A DNA stretch of 64,000 nt, from NCBI GenBank assembly GCA_013289585.1, contig JABCZR010000025.1, positions 1 through 64,000 on the forward strand, in the 5' to 3' direction. Below are positions 13,848 through 20,368 of this stretch, one piece after another. The notes beneath the pieces were generated by a model, which worked only from the letters and a program-made list of their open reading frames with translations, did no database searches and was not told the origin of the DNA. Each line of letters starts with the position of its first letter. The first letter of the stretch is position 1. The stretch comes from Acidobacteriota bacterium. GTDB lineage: Bacteria; Acidobacteriota; Terriglobia; Acidiferrales; UBA7541. The translations under genes and the position numbers were made by a program.

Positions 13848-14484
13848 TCCCGAATTATAGTCCCATCGCGCAATTCAAACCCTTAAAAATCCATGTCAGG
13901 CTCGACTGAATTCACGCATCATTTTCGGACGATTGCGAGTGGGTCGTACGCAATGCGCGCTAGTGGACCGTTGTTGCTTACCGTCGGCACGCGCAGGGGA
14001 ATTACCGCACACGTTCCCCATACTTCGGATGTGGGTTTTTCGCGGCGTAATTTCGCGGAACCTGAAAGAGGCTCAACGAAGAGATTTGACTGGCTTTGCC
14101 TTTTCAGTCTCTCGATTCTGGACCGTTTTGGACCACGCGCATCGACTATCCCTAATAGCGCGAGTCTCTTACGAATGCGCAGCATTGGGTTCGATTCCCA
14201 TCGCTCGCTCCATAACTCCCCCTTTTCCGAAGACGTCAGGTTTCTCTGCTTGCGGTTTGCCTTCCCCTTGAGAAAGGCTGCAAGAAAAACCAATTCCCTC
14301 GTTCTAACGGCATGCAGAAACGGCAGTTGTACCGCCAGGCTGTCCGTTATAGTCAGAAAGATATTTGATGGAACAACCATCTTCGGATCGCGCGACATCC
14401 TATCCATTCAAGAACTCTTTCCATCCCCGGGTTGCTCATTCATCGCGCCTGCTTGTCCGCTCTGAAAATGAGGAGGCTACTGCT
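13848..14484. other. Island right end and upstream region of exported-protein genes
   Basis: No supportable gene. It contains the imperfect direct repeat at 14119-14134 and the partial tRNA copy at 14186-14217. The minus-strand open frame across it is a by-product of tRNA-derived sequence. The part after 14217 must hold the promoter of the 14485 gene, but no strong match is evident. Confidence 0.6.
14186..14217 (+). repeat. Right attachment-like repeat, partial tRNA-Gly copy
   Basis: 31 of 32 positions match 7867-7898, including the T arm, CCA and the following TAACT. The upstream bases do not fold as the remaining tRNA, so only the 3' end was duplicated, as expected of the far junction of an integrated element. 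Confidence 0.85.
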
Positions 14485-16530
14485 ATGTCCGCAAGAGCTA
14501 CATCGACGTTGAAATTGAGAAAAATGCCAGGCTCGCCGTTGGTTTGGATAACTCTGATCACACTTTTTTTTCTGATAGCCAGCAAGGCCAGCGCCCAAAA
14601 TGCTCCGCATTCGCCTGGCTGGGTCGTCTTGCCGGTTGAAGAGTACCGGACGCTGCACGCCCGTGCGTATCCCACTGCGGGCGATCCAGAGCCGCCGCCT
14701 GTGGAAGCGACGCTAACCCGCGTGGACTATGAACTGCGCATCAATGGTGATCTCGCTTCCGGCCGCGCCACCCTCACGGTCGATGTCCTCAAGGACGGAT
14801 GGGTGCGCGTTCCTATTCCTTCGGGTCTACTCGTTCGCGAAGCGCGGCTGGACGGTAGGCTCGTTTCTCTTGTGCCAAGCACCGCTGGAAAATCCGGCGG
14901 CCAACCCTCCGCGCTGCTCTCACATCCCGGCCGGGCCATCTTGCTGCTGGATATTGCGCTTCCCGTTGTCCTATCGGCCGGCGAGGAAAGCATTTCGCTT
15001 CCCTCGACCACATCGGGAGTATGTCGAGCTGCTGTCCAGCTACCGCGCCAGGGCGTGGATCTCAAACTCAGCGGTGGGCTGGTCTCTGAAAAGTCTGAAT
15101 CTGCGACGGAGAGCAAGTGGATAGCCTACGGCCGGGGGAACGAACCGCTTACGTTCACGTGGCGCAGAAAGACGGAAGATCACCGCACGACGCAACCATT
15201 GCGCTTGCGCGGCTCTCTGACGCAACTCCTGGGCCTCGGCGAGGACGCCACTTCCATCAACGCTGAAGTTAATCTGGAGGTCACTCAAGGAGCAGCCCAT
15301 GAAGTAAGAATCGAAATCCCGGAGAAAGTCACCATCAATCAGGTTCTCGGCGCAGTGGTAGCCGATTGGGAAGTAAAATCCGGCCAGCTCTCCGTCACCT
15401 TTCTTGAGCCGGTAGAACAAAGAGCACGATTCGTGATCACGGGCGAAACTCGCAGTCCCCGCGAGGGACAGATCGAGGTTCCGATTCTCCGGCTGGTAGA
15501 CACCGAGCGCGAAACCGGCGGCGTCGCCGTGGAGGTGCTCGGCGCTGGCGAGATCAAGGATGTTAAATCGGAAGGCCTGGAAAGCGCTGATGCCACCGAC
15601 CTCGGCGAAATGGTAGCCAGCCGTCAATCGCAGTCACTCACGGCCTTTCGCTTCCGCTCAAGCGCTGCGAAGTTAGCACGGTCTCTGACGGTGGAAGTGG
15701 CGCGCTACACGCCGCAGGCTGTCTTGCTCGCCAATGTTGAAGAAGCCCGTTATCAGGTGCTGATCAGCTCTGAGGGCAAGATCCTGGTTCAAGCGCGCTA
15801 TGCCATTCGCAATAACCAGCGCAACTTCCTGAAGATCAGCTTACCCCCTGGCGCTACGCTGTGGAGCGCGTCGTTAGCCGGCAAGGCTGTTCGCCCCGGG
15901 CAGTCGCCTGACGGTAGCCTCCTGCTCCCCTTGGACAAAGCACGCTCGGGCGAGGAAGCTCCGGAGTTTGCCGTCGAAGTTGTATATCTGGCGCGCGGGA
16001 ACGCCTGGAATGACAAAGGGCAATTTAGACTGGTGATGCCCGCTCTCGACTTGCCCGTCTCCAGGACCGGACTCCTCGTCTACCATCCTCCCATGTTCAA
16101 GGTGATTCCCGAACAGGGAGCATTTCGTATGGAGACGTATGCGAATCCAAGTTCCGCTGCTTTGAATCCACCTGCAGCTTTCGGCTCAGGTGCAGGCGGG
16201 GTTTCTGCGGGGATAAGCGGCGGCGCGTCAGCAATTGCAAGCTCTGGTCCCGCCGCCATGCGGGAGATGGCCGCCGCACCACTCTCGCCATTTGATGTGG
16301 ATGGTAAGGACGAGGTCAAAGCAAAGCAAGCGCAAGCAGCGACGCAGTCTCTACTCGACAAGTTCAGGGCCGATGCTCTGGCAGGGAAGCGCGCGGGGAT
16401 TCTTCCCATTCGTGTTTCTTTCCCTGTTTTCGGGCCGTCCCTCTATTTGGTCTCCGAACTGACCGGCGAGAATCAAGCTCCGATTGCAAACTTGACGTAT
16501 CAGCACGACAAAAAGGCAGGTGGCAAATGA
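14485..16530 (+). CDS. Large exported protein of unknown function, first of a paralogous pair
   Basis: ATG 14485 is chosen because GAGGAGG lies 8 bases upstream. 681 residues with a signal peptide (hydrophobic LVWITLITLFFLIASKASAQ). Mature part is beta-rich, starting WVVLPVEEYRTLHARAYP. The segment AIRNNQRNFLKISLPPGATL is mirrored in the next gene (VIRNQAQSFLKVALPGGASI), as is the leading LP-x-EEY motif. A Gly/Ser/Ala-rich linker lies around 565-605. No enzyme motif recognised. It overlaps the next gene by ATGA (16527-16530), so the two are translationally coupled and probably act together at the cell surface. Confidence 0.85.
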   Translation: MSARATSTLKLRKMPGSPLVWITLITLFFLIASKASAQNAPHSPGWVVLPVEEYRTLHARAYPTAGDPEPPPVEATLTRVDYELRINGDLASGRATLTVDVLKDGWVRVPIPSGLLVREARLDGRLVSLVPSTAGKSGGQPSALLSHPGRAILLLDIALPVVLSAGEESISLPSTTSGVCRAAVQLPRQGVDLKLSGGLVSEKSESATESKWIAYGRGNEPLTFTWRRKTEDHRTTQPLRLRGSLTQLLGLGEDATSINAEVNLEVTQGAAHEVRIEIPEKVTINQVLGAVVADWEVKSGQLSVTFLEPVEQRARFVITGETRSPREGQIEVPILRLVDTERETGGVAVEVLGAGEIKDVKSEGLESADATDLGEMVASRQSQSLTAFRFRSSAAKLARSLTVEVARYTPQAVLLANVEEARYQVLISSEGKILVQARYAIRNNQRNFLKISLPPGATLWSASLAGKAVRPGQSPDGSLLLPLDKARSGEEAPEFAVEVVYLARGNAWNDKGQFRLVMPALDLPVSRTGLLVYHPPMFKVIPEQGAFRMETYANPSSAALNPPAAFGSGAGGVSAGISGGASAIASSGPAAMREMAAAPLSPFDVDGKDEVKAKQAQAATQSLLDKFRADALAGKRAGILPIRVSFPVFGPSLYLVSELTGENQAPIANLTYQHDKKAGGK

Positions 16531-18740
16531 AAAAGCTCATAGCAACTCTCTTGACGTTGATGATGCTTCTTCCGGAGTACGCTTTGGCGGAGGAAAAGGC
16601 TCTTCCGCCTGTGCCCGGCTCGGGCAACGTTACCCTTCCGCTCGACGAATACAATCGTCTCCTTGACCTGGCCAGCAAGCCGGTCCACAAGGCGGACACG
16701 CCGCCCGTGCCGTACACGATGAAGCGCGCGGATCTAAAATTTCATGTCAGGGATGAATCTGTTCAGGGGACCGTTCAATTGCAGGGTGAAATTCTTCGCA
16801 GAGGCGCCACAAAAGTGCCGCTCACAACCGGCATGGCTATCCTCGACGCTCGGCAAGAAGGAAAGAGCCTGCCACTTGAATTGGAAAACGGAACGCACAC
16901 CGCTGTCCTCGCAGGTCCATCCGACTTCGCCGTCACGCTGGATGCGGGTCTGCCACTAAGTATCGAAGCCGGCAAAGCCTCCTTCAGCCTGCCCGTGCCC
17001 GCGGCCGGAAGCGCTCGCCTAACCTTTATCGTTCCGGGCGATCGCACCAACGTTCGAATCAATCCCGGGATAATCACATCGAGGTCCTCGGAAAAAGGTC
17101 AGACGGTCATCGAAGCCACACTCATCCCAGGTCAGCCCGCGAACATCTGGTGGACCACTCGTGAAGTTGCCGTGCCTGTTGTTCCGAAAGAAGTGCGTTT
17201 CCTCTCTGACGTAAAGACGCTCGTCTCCGTCAGCGAATCCGACATTCGAATCGCTGCTCTCGCCGATATCTCGGTAGTACAGGGCGAACCCACGCAATTC
17301 GAAATCGAAATTCCCGCCGGCTACGAAGTGACAGGGACGACGGGAGCTTCCGTCGAATCCACTGAAATCGAATCCGGCATCTTGCTCCTCAAAGTCACCG
17401 GACCGGCGCAGCGCGCACACCAATTCCTTATCTCCATGGAGAAATCCATCGCCGCCACGAAGACCGATGCGCCTTTCCTTAGTTTCAAGAGCGCCCAGCG
17501 CGAAACCGGCGAAATCCTGATCGAAGGCGCGGGAACCATCGAACTCACTGCGAAGGAAGCCGGCGGACTCAAGCGCATCGATACCAAGGAGACCAATCCG
17601 TATCTGCGTTCGCTTGCACGATTTCCGATGCAGGCTGCTTTTCGTTACCACAAACAGCCCAATGAAACGCCCAGCCTCGCGCTCGAATGGATGCGCTTCC
17701 CGGACAGCAGCGTGCTCTCCGCGGTTGCCGAACGCGCTGTAGTCACAACGCTGGTAACCACGGAAGGTCGCTCTCTGACCGAAGTAAAACTCGTGATCAG
17801 AAATCAGGCGCAATCCTTTCTGAAAGTGGCATTGCCTGGAGGCGCGAGCATCCTCACCGCCGAAATTGAAGGAGTAAAAGTGAAGCCGGTCGAAGGTCCG
17901 GACGGCAACCGCATTCCACTCGTGCGGCCCGGTTTGCGCACCAGCGATTCCTACACTGTCTCCTTCGTCTTCATGCATTCGGGCGCACCCTTTGCAAAAA
18001 GGGGCGGCTCCGATCTCGCGCTTCCGAAAATGGACATTCCCATTAATCTCCTGCAGTGGGAAGTGTTCCTGCCCGAGCGATACAAAGTGAAGGACTTCGG
18101 CGGCGACGCCATCGCCGCAAACCTCCTGCCGCCCGTCTCCCAAGACGTCTCCGGCGCGGAGTCGGACGGGGACATCACGGGAATCCCCGTCGCAGCTTCA
18201 ATGACCAACTACGAATCTGTCTCGCTGCTTCCGGGACAATTGGGCGGGCTCATCGTCGACTCCAGCGGAACGGTTGTTCCTGGCACGCGAATCACCGTCA
18301 CGCAAGTTGACACCGGAGCTTCGCGAAACGTGGTCACCGATTCTTCAGGGCGCTGGGTCGTTTCGAACTTGCCTTCCGGGCGAATCAAGATTGTGGCAAA
18401 CCATCCCGGTTTCAACCAATTGGTCAGTCAGATCAATTACGACGGGAGCAGGCCCATGCCGACGGTCTATGCACTGAATGCCGGCGCTCTGGCGGAATCG
18501 GTCGAAGTTTCCGCCAACAACGGCAACGTGGATTTGCAGAGTCTGCAGCGCGACGCCAAGAAGAAGGCGGAGAAGCAGCAGTACGCCGCCTCCGTCAACG
18601 TAGCAAATCTCCAGCAGCGCGTTTCCGGCGTGTACCCTGTTCGAATCGACGTGCCAAGGGCAGGGAGCTCTTACCATTTCGTCCGGCCGCTGGTGATCGA
18701 CGAAGAAACCAAGGTGAGCTTTACATACAAATCCAAATAA
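16527..18740 (+). CDS. Large exported protein with carboxypeptidase-regulatory-like domain
   Basis: 737 residues with a signal peptide (MKKLIATLLTLMMLLPEYALA). The first 540 or so residues parallel the upstream protein (LPLDEYNRLLDLASKP near the start, VIRNQAQSFLKVALPGGASI, then MDIPINLLQWEVFLPERYKV). Near residue 570-655 a carboxypeptidase regulatory-like Ig fold is inserted (GGLIVDSSGTVVPGTRITVT, SSGRWVVSNLPSGRIKIVA). The end returns to a beta-sandwich (YPVRIDVPRAGSSYHFVRPL). Role unknown; surface or periplasmic structural function is inferred. Converges on the pseudouridine synthase gene with a 3-base gap. Confidence 0.85.
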   Translation: MKKLIATLLTLMMLLPEYALAEEKALPPVPGSGNVTLPLDEYNRLLDLASKPVHKADTPPVPYTMKRADLKFHVRDESVQGTVQLQGEILRRGATKVPLTTGMAILDARQEGKSLPLELENGTHTAVLAGPSDFAVTLDAGLPLSIEAGKASFSLPVPAAGSARLTFIVPGDRTNVRINPGIITSRSSEKGQTVIEATLIPGQPANIWWTTREVAVPVVPKEVRFLSDVKTLVSVSESDIRIAALADISVVQGEPTQFEIEIPAGYEVTGTTGASVESTEIESGILLLKVTGPAQRAHQFLISMEKSIAATKTDAPFLSFKSAQRETGEILIEGAGTIELTAKEAGGLKRIDTKETNPYLRSLARFPMQAAFRYHKQPNETPSLALEWMRFPDSSVLSAVAERAVVTTLVTTEGRSLTEVKLVIRNQAQSFLKVALPGGASILTAEIEGVKVKPVEGPDGNRIPLVRPGLRTSDSYTVSFVFMHSGAPFAKRGGSDLALPKMDIPINLLQWEVFLPERYKVKDFGGDAIAANLLPPVSQDVSGAESDGDITGIPVAASMTNYESVSLLPGQLGGLIVDSSGTVVPGTRITVTQVDTGASRNVVTDSSGRWVVSNLPSGRIKIVANHPGFNQLVSQINYDGSRPMPTVYALNAGALAESVEVSANNGNVDLQSLQRDAKKKAEKQQYAASVNVANLQQRVSGVYPVRIDVPRAGSSYHFVRPLVIDEETKVSFTYKSK

Positions 18741-19591: not shown

Positions 19592-20368
19592 TTACTTCCT
19601 CGACTCAGCAGCTGCGGCCGGTGCTACCGCAGCCTGCTGACCTCCAGCCTGGTTCGCTGAACTCGCTGTTGTCGCTGGAGCCGGATCATGCTTCACAGCC
19701 CCGTAACGCGCAGCCAGCCAGTCCCTCGCCTCCACCGGCCTGTAGTTAAACGGCCCCATCCCGCCGCGATACGCGATGTGTCCGCTCTCATCAATAATGT
19801 AAATGCGCTCCGGCCAGGCGGAATACGCCAGATCCGCCGCATTGCTCATATCATCCACGCCGAAGGGCAACGGATACTTGAAGCGCTTCGTAAAATCGTT
19901 GGCAATGGCCATGCGCTGCTCCAACGTCTTAGGCTGCGCGTAACAAACATCTTCCTTCACGTTGGATTTCATCTGCCATTCGTCGGTGGGATGCGCTTCC
20001 CGCACATACACAGTGAGGAAATCAGCGTGATCCTTATAGTCGTTGTAAATCTGGACAACGTCGCCAACCTGGCGACGGAAGGGCGGTCAGGTAAAGCTCC
20101 CAAAAAAAACAACCAGCGGCCGCGCACCCGTCCGCTCGCGAAGATGAAACCGCGTCTCCCCATCGAGCGCCAAAAGCCGCGCATCCGGCGCTTCGTCACC
20201 CACCTTCAAGTTGCCTCGATGCATATGCGGCAGCGCGTACCGCACCATGTAGAGCGCATCCTTGGGGCCTCCGGCCATCAGCGAGAGCCCCGCGAACGCG
20301 GCCACCAGGAGGCCAATCACAACGCCCAGAGTCCATTTCCAGAATAACGGCATGCTCACCAGCTCCAT
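19592..20368 (-). CDS. Deiodinase-like selenoprotein with in-frame UGA (Sec94)
   Basis: One reading frame of 258 residues is interrupted only by TGA at 20089-20087. Upstream: an N-terminal membrane anchor (about 10-32, WKWTLGVVIGLLVAAFAGL) and the start of a thioredoxin fold (KVGDEAPDARLLALDGE, ARPLVVFFGSFT). After the TGA the same frame continues PPFRRQVGDVVQIYNDYK, VYVREAHPTDEWQ and, near the end, AWPERIYIIDESGHIAYRGG and MGPFNYRPVEARDWL. These match the iodothyronine deiodinase family (PF00837): the catalytic GSxTU(C)PPF, the EAHxxDxW block, and the LPERLYII...GPWNY block. The TGA falls on the catalytic Sec/Cys. A SECIS-like hairpin follows. Start may be 20368 or the inner ATG at 20353. 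Lies after kdsC and before the pseudouridine synthase, same strand. Substrate unknown; not necessarily an iodinated compound. Confidence 0.85.
20059..20077 (-). promoter_or_regulatory. Bacterial SECIS-like hairpin downstream of the UGA
   Basis: On the minus strand CGTCGCCA (20077-20070) and TGGCGACG (20066-20059) form a perfect 8-bp stem closed by the three-base loop GGU. The stem begins 10 bases after the UGA and the loop 18 bases after it. Bacterial SECIS elements sit directly after the UGA, with the loop roughly 16-37 bases away and a G among the first loop bases; all three conditions hold. Confidence 0.7.

Follow-up and report, generated by a model that had tools for sequence, protein, structure and literature searches.

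The locus examined here raises the question of whether a minus-strand TGA codon at 20087..20089 separates two genes or is read as selenocysteine (Sec) within one. In the window, by which we mean the whole 64,000-nucleotide stretch of the Acidobacteriota contig JABCZR010000025.1 that was analysed, the ORF listing and translation revealed that TGA 20089-20087 is the sole interruption between two same-phase minus-strand open frames. Translation across it from ATG 20368 gives a product with GSFT[U]PPF, EAHPTDEW and WPERIYII...GPFNY blocks, bearing out an earlier sequence-only reading in which the two frames together encode one protein. That reading had also expected automated callers to split the gene in two, and standard ORF calling does yield two ORFs. 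The alignment of the joined product to PF00837, which it had called for, runs across the TGA, because the joined score (134.5 bits, E 4.9e-39, cut-off 27) exceeds that of either half alone (74.2 and 16 bits). The minus-strand interval from 20353 (or 20368) to 19592 is confirmed as one gene read through TGA. The same triplet is the ordinary stop of the neighbouring KdsC, KdsA and RluB, and an Rfam scan of the stretch gave a single chance match, far under the gathering score.

The product had been proposed to comprise 258 residues with Sec at residue 94. The single joined gene stands, but its true start is probably ATG 20353 rather than the alternative ATG 20368, since the N-termini of close relatives align at ATG 20353, 88 codons upstream of the Sec codon. 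Moreover, automated start choice among the relatives favours a position about 90 codons before the Sec codon, and a GGAG is located 9 nt upstream of ATG 20353. From this start, the deiodinase-like gene would span 19592..20353 (minus strand) and encode 253 residues, with Sec as residue 89 in the FGSFT-U-PPF motif and TAA as the stop codon.

The TGA is shared by most relatives. These were searched for with two patterns, and the search was not biased to TGA because one of the patterns spells the catalytic site as Cys. Among the 126 motif loci, the catalytic codon is TGA in 118 and TGC or TGT in eight; TGA followed by PPF occurs in 116, representing 100 distinct stretches. In the T-x-PPF form, TGA is found in 117 of 118 loci, some of which are duplicated in the set, and TGC in L080 only. 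The 80 loci retained from named genomes (of 310 relatives) likewise comprise 79 with TGA and one, again L080, with TGC. Locus L103 has TGA within a variant motif and falls outside the 126. To the suggestion of checking whether homologues carry Cys or Sec at the catalytic position, the T-x-PPF homologues answer with Sec (TGA) or, in a single case, Cys. Outside this form the family includes Cys members, such as L021, and in L030, a weak PF00837 match (29.2 bits), neither Sec nor Cys occupies the site. The TGA recurs in many separate assemblies, and the 16 best-scoring PF00837 matches of the phylum contain exactly one TGA each.

Matches to PF00837 were found in 38 of 396 genomes of the phylum, in 26 of 61 genomes of the window's family and in 13 of 14 of its genus, its own genome included; the carriers belong to Acidobacteriota, plus some Planctomycetota, Myxococcota and Verrucomicrobiota. 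In three loci (L090, L028 and L014) the frames end 57, 43 and 113 codons after the Sec codon, respectively; these early ends are probably assembly errors or decayed copies. At L017:1480-3252, a Cys-form deiodinase domain ends a long frame, preceded by a region that resembles TPR repeats by eye.

Pairwise codon alignment gave dN/dS values of 0.04-0.17 after the TGA in 17 of 18 distinct relatives; in the 18th, L075, dS is saturated. By this sequence-based measure, the codons downstream of the TGA are under purifying selection. An ungapped count gave 0.41-0.65 for five of 21 rows (L073, L074, L075, L077 and L136), three rows of the set (L136, L137 and L146) being duplicates of L077, L065 and L078. 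Gapped alignment of L073, L074, L077 and L136 revealed indels and dN/dS of 0.06-0.14.

Downstream of the TGA, the minus strand encodes a bacterial SECIS hairpin (20059..20077) with the sequence CGUCGCCA-GGU-UGGCGACG, which starts 9 nt past the UGA and places a GGU loop on an 8-bp stem 17 nt past it, with a folding energy of -12.3 kcal/mol. According to the accessible text of PMC13188914, a bSECIS element has a loop of 3-9 nt with G in the first two loop positions, a stem of 4-16 bp, a distance of 16-37 nt from the UGA and an MFE of -7.5 or lower. The window hairpin agrees with these rules in its 3-nt GGU loop, 8 bp, 17-nt distance and energy. The 43-nt RNA around it folds at -13.3 (z -1.79), with 8 of 200 dinucleotide shuffles equal or better, so that the window segment alone is modestly better than such shuffles; among 5000 synonymous variants, 0.62% are equally stable.

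The survey of relatives, based on unique segments (100 with TGA and seven with Cys), compared them with synonymous-codon shuffles that keep the protein. A hairpin of -5 kcal/mol or lower was found in 87 of the 100 TGA segments vs 23.7% of the shuffles, and one of -7.5 kcal/mol or lower in 62 vs 11.1%; 13 and 38 TGA segments, respectively, fall short of the strict rule at these two cut-offs. None of the seven Cys segments has a hairpin at -5 kcal/mol. Of 95 segments, 26, 13 and 15 have six perfect pairs in one of the three main registers of the stem, and 10 in a competing upstream register. Pairing is seen in 88.4% of the cells of 43 segments that represent the register of the window hairpin, vs 66.1% after shuffling; six of seven pairs have changes on both sides, and covariation is 0.498 vs 0.155 (0/500 shuffles); these rows (set A2) were chosen by eye out of the 95 for one register, and the counts therefore lean towards structure. 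All 95 segments, which mix three registers, still give covariation of 0.353 vs 0.159 (0/500), with further pair types weakly above shuffles (53/500) and pairs with a change on both sides not above them (348/500). The covariation cells count sequences, not events, and L015, which contains N, was excluded from set A1. The SECIS-like hairpin anticipated after the TGA is thus borne out by the bSECIS rules, a covarying stem and its loss in the Cys form. In a close relative (L059:6256-6291, 84% identity), which has the TGA, the hairpin is nearly absent under the bSECIS rule (-0.1 kcal/mol); either the element is weaker here or the sequence contains an error.

The search for selA, selB, selC and selD that had been recommended recovered all four in the same genome, each above its cut-off (572, 363, 65.6 and 353 bits, respectively). 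The selC gene has the anticodon TCA and lies on the same contig as the deiodinase-like gene, 49 kb off, and selA, selB and selD are located elsewhere. Within the assemblies, the homologues and the sel genes, none of the signs that the sequence-only reading had named against itself was seen. Of the 396 genomes of the phylum, 250 contain selA above cut-off. Among the 23 genomes that have a TGA-bearing hit over the Pfam cut-off, 21 match selA strongly (E 1e-123 or better), compared to 229 of the remaining 373 (Fisher p 0.002, uncorrected for kinship), and selA is present in 15 of the 16 genomes with the best-scoring UPPF hits (p 0.006, likewise uncorrected). Two genomes, G314 and G341, have TGA forms with selA not above cut-off. 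G341 has selB and tRNA-Sec beside its TGA form; either its assembly has a gap or the Sec pathway is being lost from this genome.

In ten named genomes, selA exceeds its cut-off in all nine TGA carriers but not in G456, the carrier of the Cys form. G456, an assembly of unstated completeness, is the source of L080, where the catalytic codon is TGC and no hairpin is found in register; its best selA match scores 21.1 bits, its best selB match (118) is under the cut-off, and the single hit above cut-off in a tRNA-Sec search is a tRNA-Ser. With Cys in place of Sec and neither hairpin nor machinery found, L080 serves as a natural control for UGA recoding, as a single case of Cys replacement in the T-x-PPF form. 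In the source genome, contig C26:27947-31096 of G000 (L152 and L153) encodes the alpha subunit of a formate dehydrogenase, likely a second selenoprotein of that genome, whose frame includes a single TGA within a VUHGP context.

With high confidence, we read the locus as a single gene that encodes a deiodinase-like selenoprotein anchored in the membrane. The proposal that the TGA sits on the catalytic residue of such a protein finds support in the PF00837 match, the TGA conservation, the hairpin and the machinery. With the hairpin at 20077-20059 as its guide, SelB would deliver Sec-tRNA(Sec) to the UGA at 20089-20087, and recoding would give a product of 253 residues rather than an 88-residue fragment. 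By itself an in-frame TGA looks like a pseudogene or a sequencing error, with a true stop and a dead 3' half, and the two ORFs of standard calling agree with that appearance. However, the same-codon TGA in 117 of 118 T-x-PPF loci, the downstream dN/dS of 0.04-0.17 and the relative that has Cys at this codon, where the Sec machinery was not found, make such decay practically negligible. It is also very improbable that the UGA is read by another route, be it a suppressor tRNA, near-cognate readthrough or a reassigned code: KdsC, KdsA and RluB all end in TGA, the full Sec machinery and the SECIS hairpin are present, and Sec is replaced by Cys rather than by Trp or Gly.

The catalytic part of this selenoprotein is a deiodinase/thioredoxin-fold domain (19697..20218, minus strand; residues about 46-219) that contains S86, T88, U89, Y116, E119 and H121. 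The AF2 model (pLDDT 89.7, pTM 0.81) is most similar to mouse Dio2, with a Z-score of 22.7 and an rmsd of 2.2 over 167 aligned residues at 38% identity, and to mouse Dio3, with a Z-score of 21.8 and an rmsd of 2.8 over 172. Foldseek returned the same top two, and the sequence also matches the PDB chains of Dio2 (E 6.2e-28) and Dio3 (E 2.1e-26). The next fold matches, at Z 16.5 and below, are thiol-disulfide enzymes and one-Cys peroxiredoxins. All 44 aligned rows (alignment A4, the window plus 43 of 127 loci) match PF00837 at E <= 0.001. NF038285 (deiodinase family protein) scores 195.2 bits over positions 177-336 of 347, below its curated cut-off of 250.

In Dio2, the residues Ser127, Thr129, Tyr157, Glu160, His162 and His182 are proposed to form a proton relay with Sec, Phe224 (Dio3 Phe258) to open the thyronine cleft, and Lys241 (Dio3 Arg275) to clamp the thyronine (accessible part of PMC11592359). 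Sequence alignments to Dio2 and Dio3, from which the residue correspondence was taken, showed that the relay equivalents S86, T88, Y116, E119 and H121 are invariant in all 44 rows, and that the sixth relay position (Dio2 His182) is Pro in 42. The position of the thyronine gate (Phe224/258) is Pro in all 44 rows and that of the clamp (Lys241/Arg275) is variable. Since five relay residues match and the gate and clamp positions do not, most of the deiodinase chemistry seems to be preserved and the hormone site seems to be missing. The position of the second Cys of a CxxC or UxxC motif is occupied by Phe92 in all 44 rows. Cys137 was rejected as a general intramolecular resolving Cys, as it is present in 25 of 44 rows only.

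The membrane anchor that had been claimed appears as a single N-terminal hydrophobic segment (20273..20329, minus strand; residues 9-27, mean hydropathy 2.42), within a helix at residues 3-27 of the AF2 model, and most members of the alignment have such an anchor. Compared to the positive charge after the anchor, that before it is higher in 23, tied in 13 (including the window) and lower in seven of 43 members, the incomplete L013 being left out. In addition, the N-termini of L114, L117 and L128, from Planctomycetota and Verrucomicrobiota, resemble signal peptides by eye. From the charge bias around the anchor and these signal-peptide-like N-termini, we tentatively infer that the catalytic domain most likely faces the periplasm.

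The gene had been noted for its position by KDO synthesis genes. The adjacency is real, but it carries no meaning for function, because the synteny is limited to the window's clade: 24 of 80 loci have KdsC in the examined flank, and every one of these belongs to the clade, although some contigs end too early to tell. Among 301 neighbour ORFs at 51 loci outside the clade, no family occurs in more than six loci, and none of the neighbour genes at the loci examined indicates a substrate or a reductant. Operon or partner logic with the KDO genes was rejected as evidence of function. The order PyrG-KdsA-KpsF-KdsC-deiodinase-RluB, with 69-88% protein identity to the window, also occurs in L058 (CAJCHZ010000056.1), which is labelled Betaproteobacteria and is probably, given this resemblance, a mislabelled genome bin. 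On the plus strand of the window, two long adjacent ORFs of 721 and 737 aa occupy 14365-18740; a number of close relatives keep both next to the gene, at 65-82% identity.

The single frame, the recoding signals, the Sec machinery, the fold and the conserved relay residues come directly from the computations; the topology, the reductant and the reaction are inferred. The likeliest role of the protein is that of a selenolate reductase that acts on small molecules and is recycled by thiols. With the N-terminal helix as anchor and the catalytic domain most likely in the periplasm, the Sec89 selenolate would be aided by the S86-T88-Y116-E119-H121 network, the proton relay of animal deiodinases, in reducing a small-molecule substrate, either a hydroperoxide or a carbon-halogen bond. 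Sec89 would then be recycled by thiols, in some members perhaps via Cys137.

Within this selenolate chemistry, peroxide reduction is somewhat favoured over dehalogenation. A membrane-bound, one-Sec peroxiredoxin-like peroxidase, in which Sec attacks H2O2 or lipid peroxides and is reduced by external thiols, has a little under an even chance. It agrees with Redoxin and AhpC-TSA as the secondary Pfam matches of 40 of the 44 members, with the one-Cys peroxiredoxin AhpE at Z 15.5, with the membrane anchor and the lack of CxxC or UxxC, and with P181, invariant where animal deiodinases carry Phe. The deiodinases are nevertheless clearly the nearest fold (Z 22.7 vs 15-16), and the EAHPxDxW loop and the relay are of the deiodinase type. 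The five of six proposed relay residues kept in all 44 rows would also suit an enzyme that reductively dehalogenates iodinated or brominated aromatics in soil, but with His182 replaced by Pro in 42 of 44 rows, Phe224/258 by Pro in 44 of 44 and a variable Lys241/Arg275, the thyronine-binding positions are not retained, and we put this activity at roughly one chance in four. A thiol-disulfide oxidoreductase of the ResA/TlpA type, acting on proteins, is less likely still. ResA and related enzymes rank next in the fold search and the anchored Trx-fold architecture is alike, whereas all 44 rows have Phe (UPPF) where CxxC has its second Cys, and Cys137 is present in 25 only.

The gene is real and widespread among relatives, and its class is already known in bacteria. 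Deiodinase-like selenoproteins with a bacterial SECIS were described in 2005 from Sargasso Sea marine metagenomes, with a proposed redox role (accessible part of PMC1088965), and were counted in a 2008 marine survey whose accessible text gives no motif (PMC2398784). Their publication since 2005 makes such an enzyme less unusual in a soil-type bacterium than had been claimed. In the accessible parts of two reviews the bacterial motif is listed as UxxC (PMC9312934, PMC13188914), and the functions of such selenoproteins are called largely uncharacterised in the latter; a deiodinase homologue is described in Dictyostelium (PMC2375036, in part). For Acidobacteria, the available portion of PMC1794560 counts three selenoprotein families and names no deiodinase, nor does that of PMC12013277. 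In the accessible parts of the open-licence literature (including PMC1088965, PMC9312934, PMC13188914, PMC2398784, PMC2375036 and PMC9402790), no deiodinase-like selenoprotein is tied to Acidobacteriota, and neither an Acidobacteriota-centred clade with UPPF and an anchor nor a natural Cys replacement is described. Standard ORF calling halves such genes, and therefore selenoproteins of this kind can remain without a name in the genomes of soil bacteria.

An animal-type UPPF active site in bacteria bears on the origin of the animal hormone enzymes. In the tree, both mouse enzymes group with the window's protein (25 rows, support 96/96), although AU tests did not reject other placements of the mouse enzymes (p-AU 0.45 and 0.44); the UPPF form is not monophyletic in this tree, with 4 changes. 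A widespread soil clade of anchored, periplasm-facing selenoenzymes might perform proton-relayed dehalogenation of halogenated aromatics and be ancestral to the animal hormone use, a scenario that we consider unlikely, at about one chance in five. If it were true, natural or man-made halogenated aromatics would be the substrates, and animals would later have turned the enzyme on thyroid hormone. Named Polyangium genomes are among the lineages that have the UPPF site and most of the relay, which makes the function of bacterial deiodinase-like proteins directly testable.

Compared to the bacterial deiodinase-like family of 2005, the present one shares the Pfam family PF00837, the bacterial Sec codon and the downstream SECIS. 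It differs from the family of the reviews, which has UxxC, in carrying UPPF like the animal enzymes; the 2005 alignment figure of PMC1088965 may already include this form. By contrast with the marine family, the carriers here are Acidobacteriota-centred, and most members have an N-terminal anchor.

ResA is an anchored Trx fold, an architecture that the present protein shares, and a single catalytic chalcogen is shared with the one-Cys peroxiredoxin AhpE. Unlike ResA and AhpE, the present protein has no CxxC and possesses the deiodinase loop, and their fold scores are about 5-7 Z below those of Dio2 and Dio3. With mouse Dio2 and Dio3 (9h48, 4tr3), it shares the Trx fold, the EAHPxDxW deiodinase loop, the GSxT-U-PPF motif (Cys in the crystals), the N-terminal membrane helix with its linker and the S/T/Y/E/H relay. 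It differs from them in that His182 and Phe224 (Dio3 Phe258) are replaced by Pro, the position of Lys241 (Dio3 Arg275) is variable, no thyroid hormone is expected, and a bacterial SECIS lies within the coding region.
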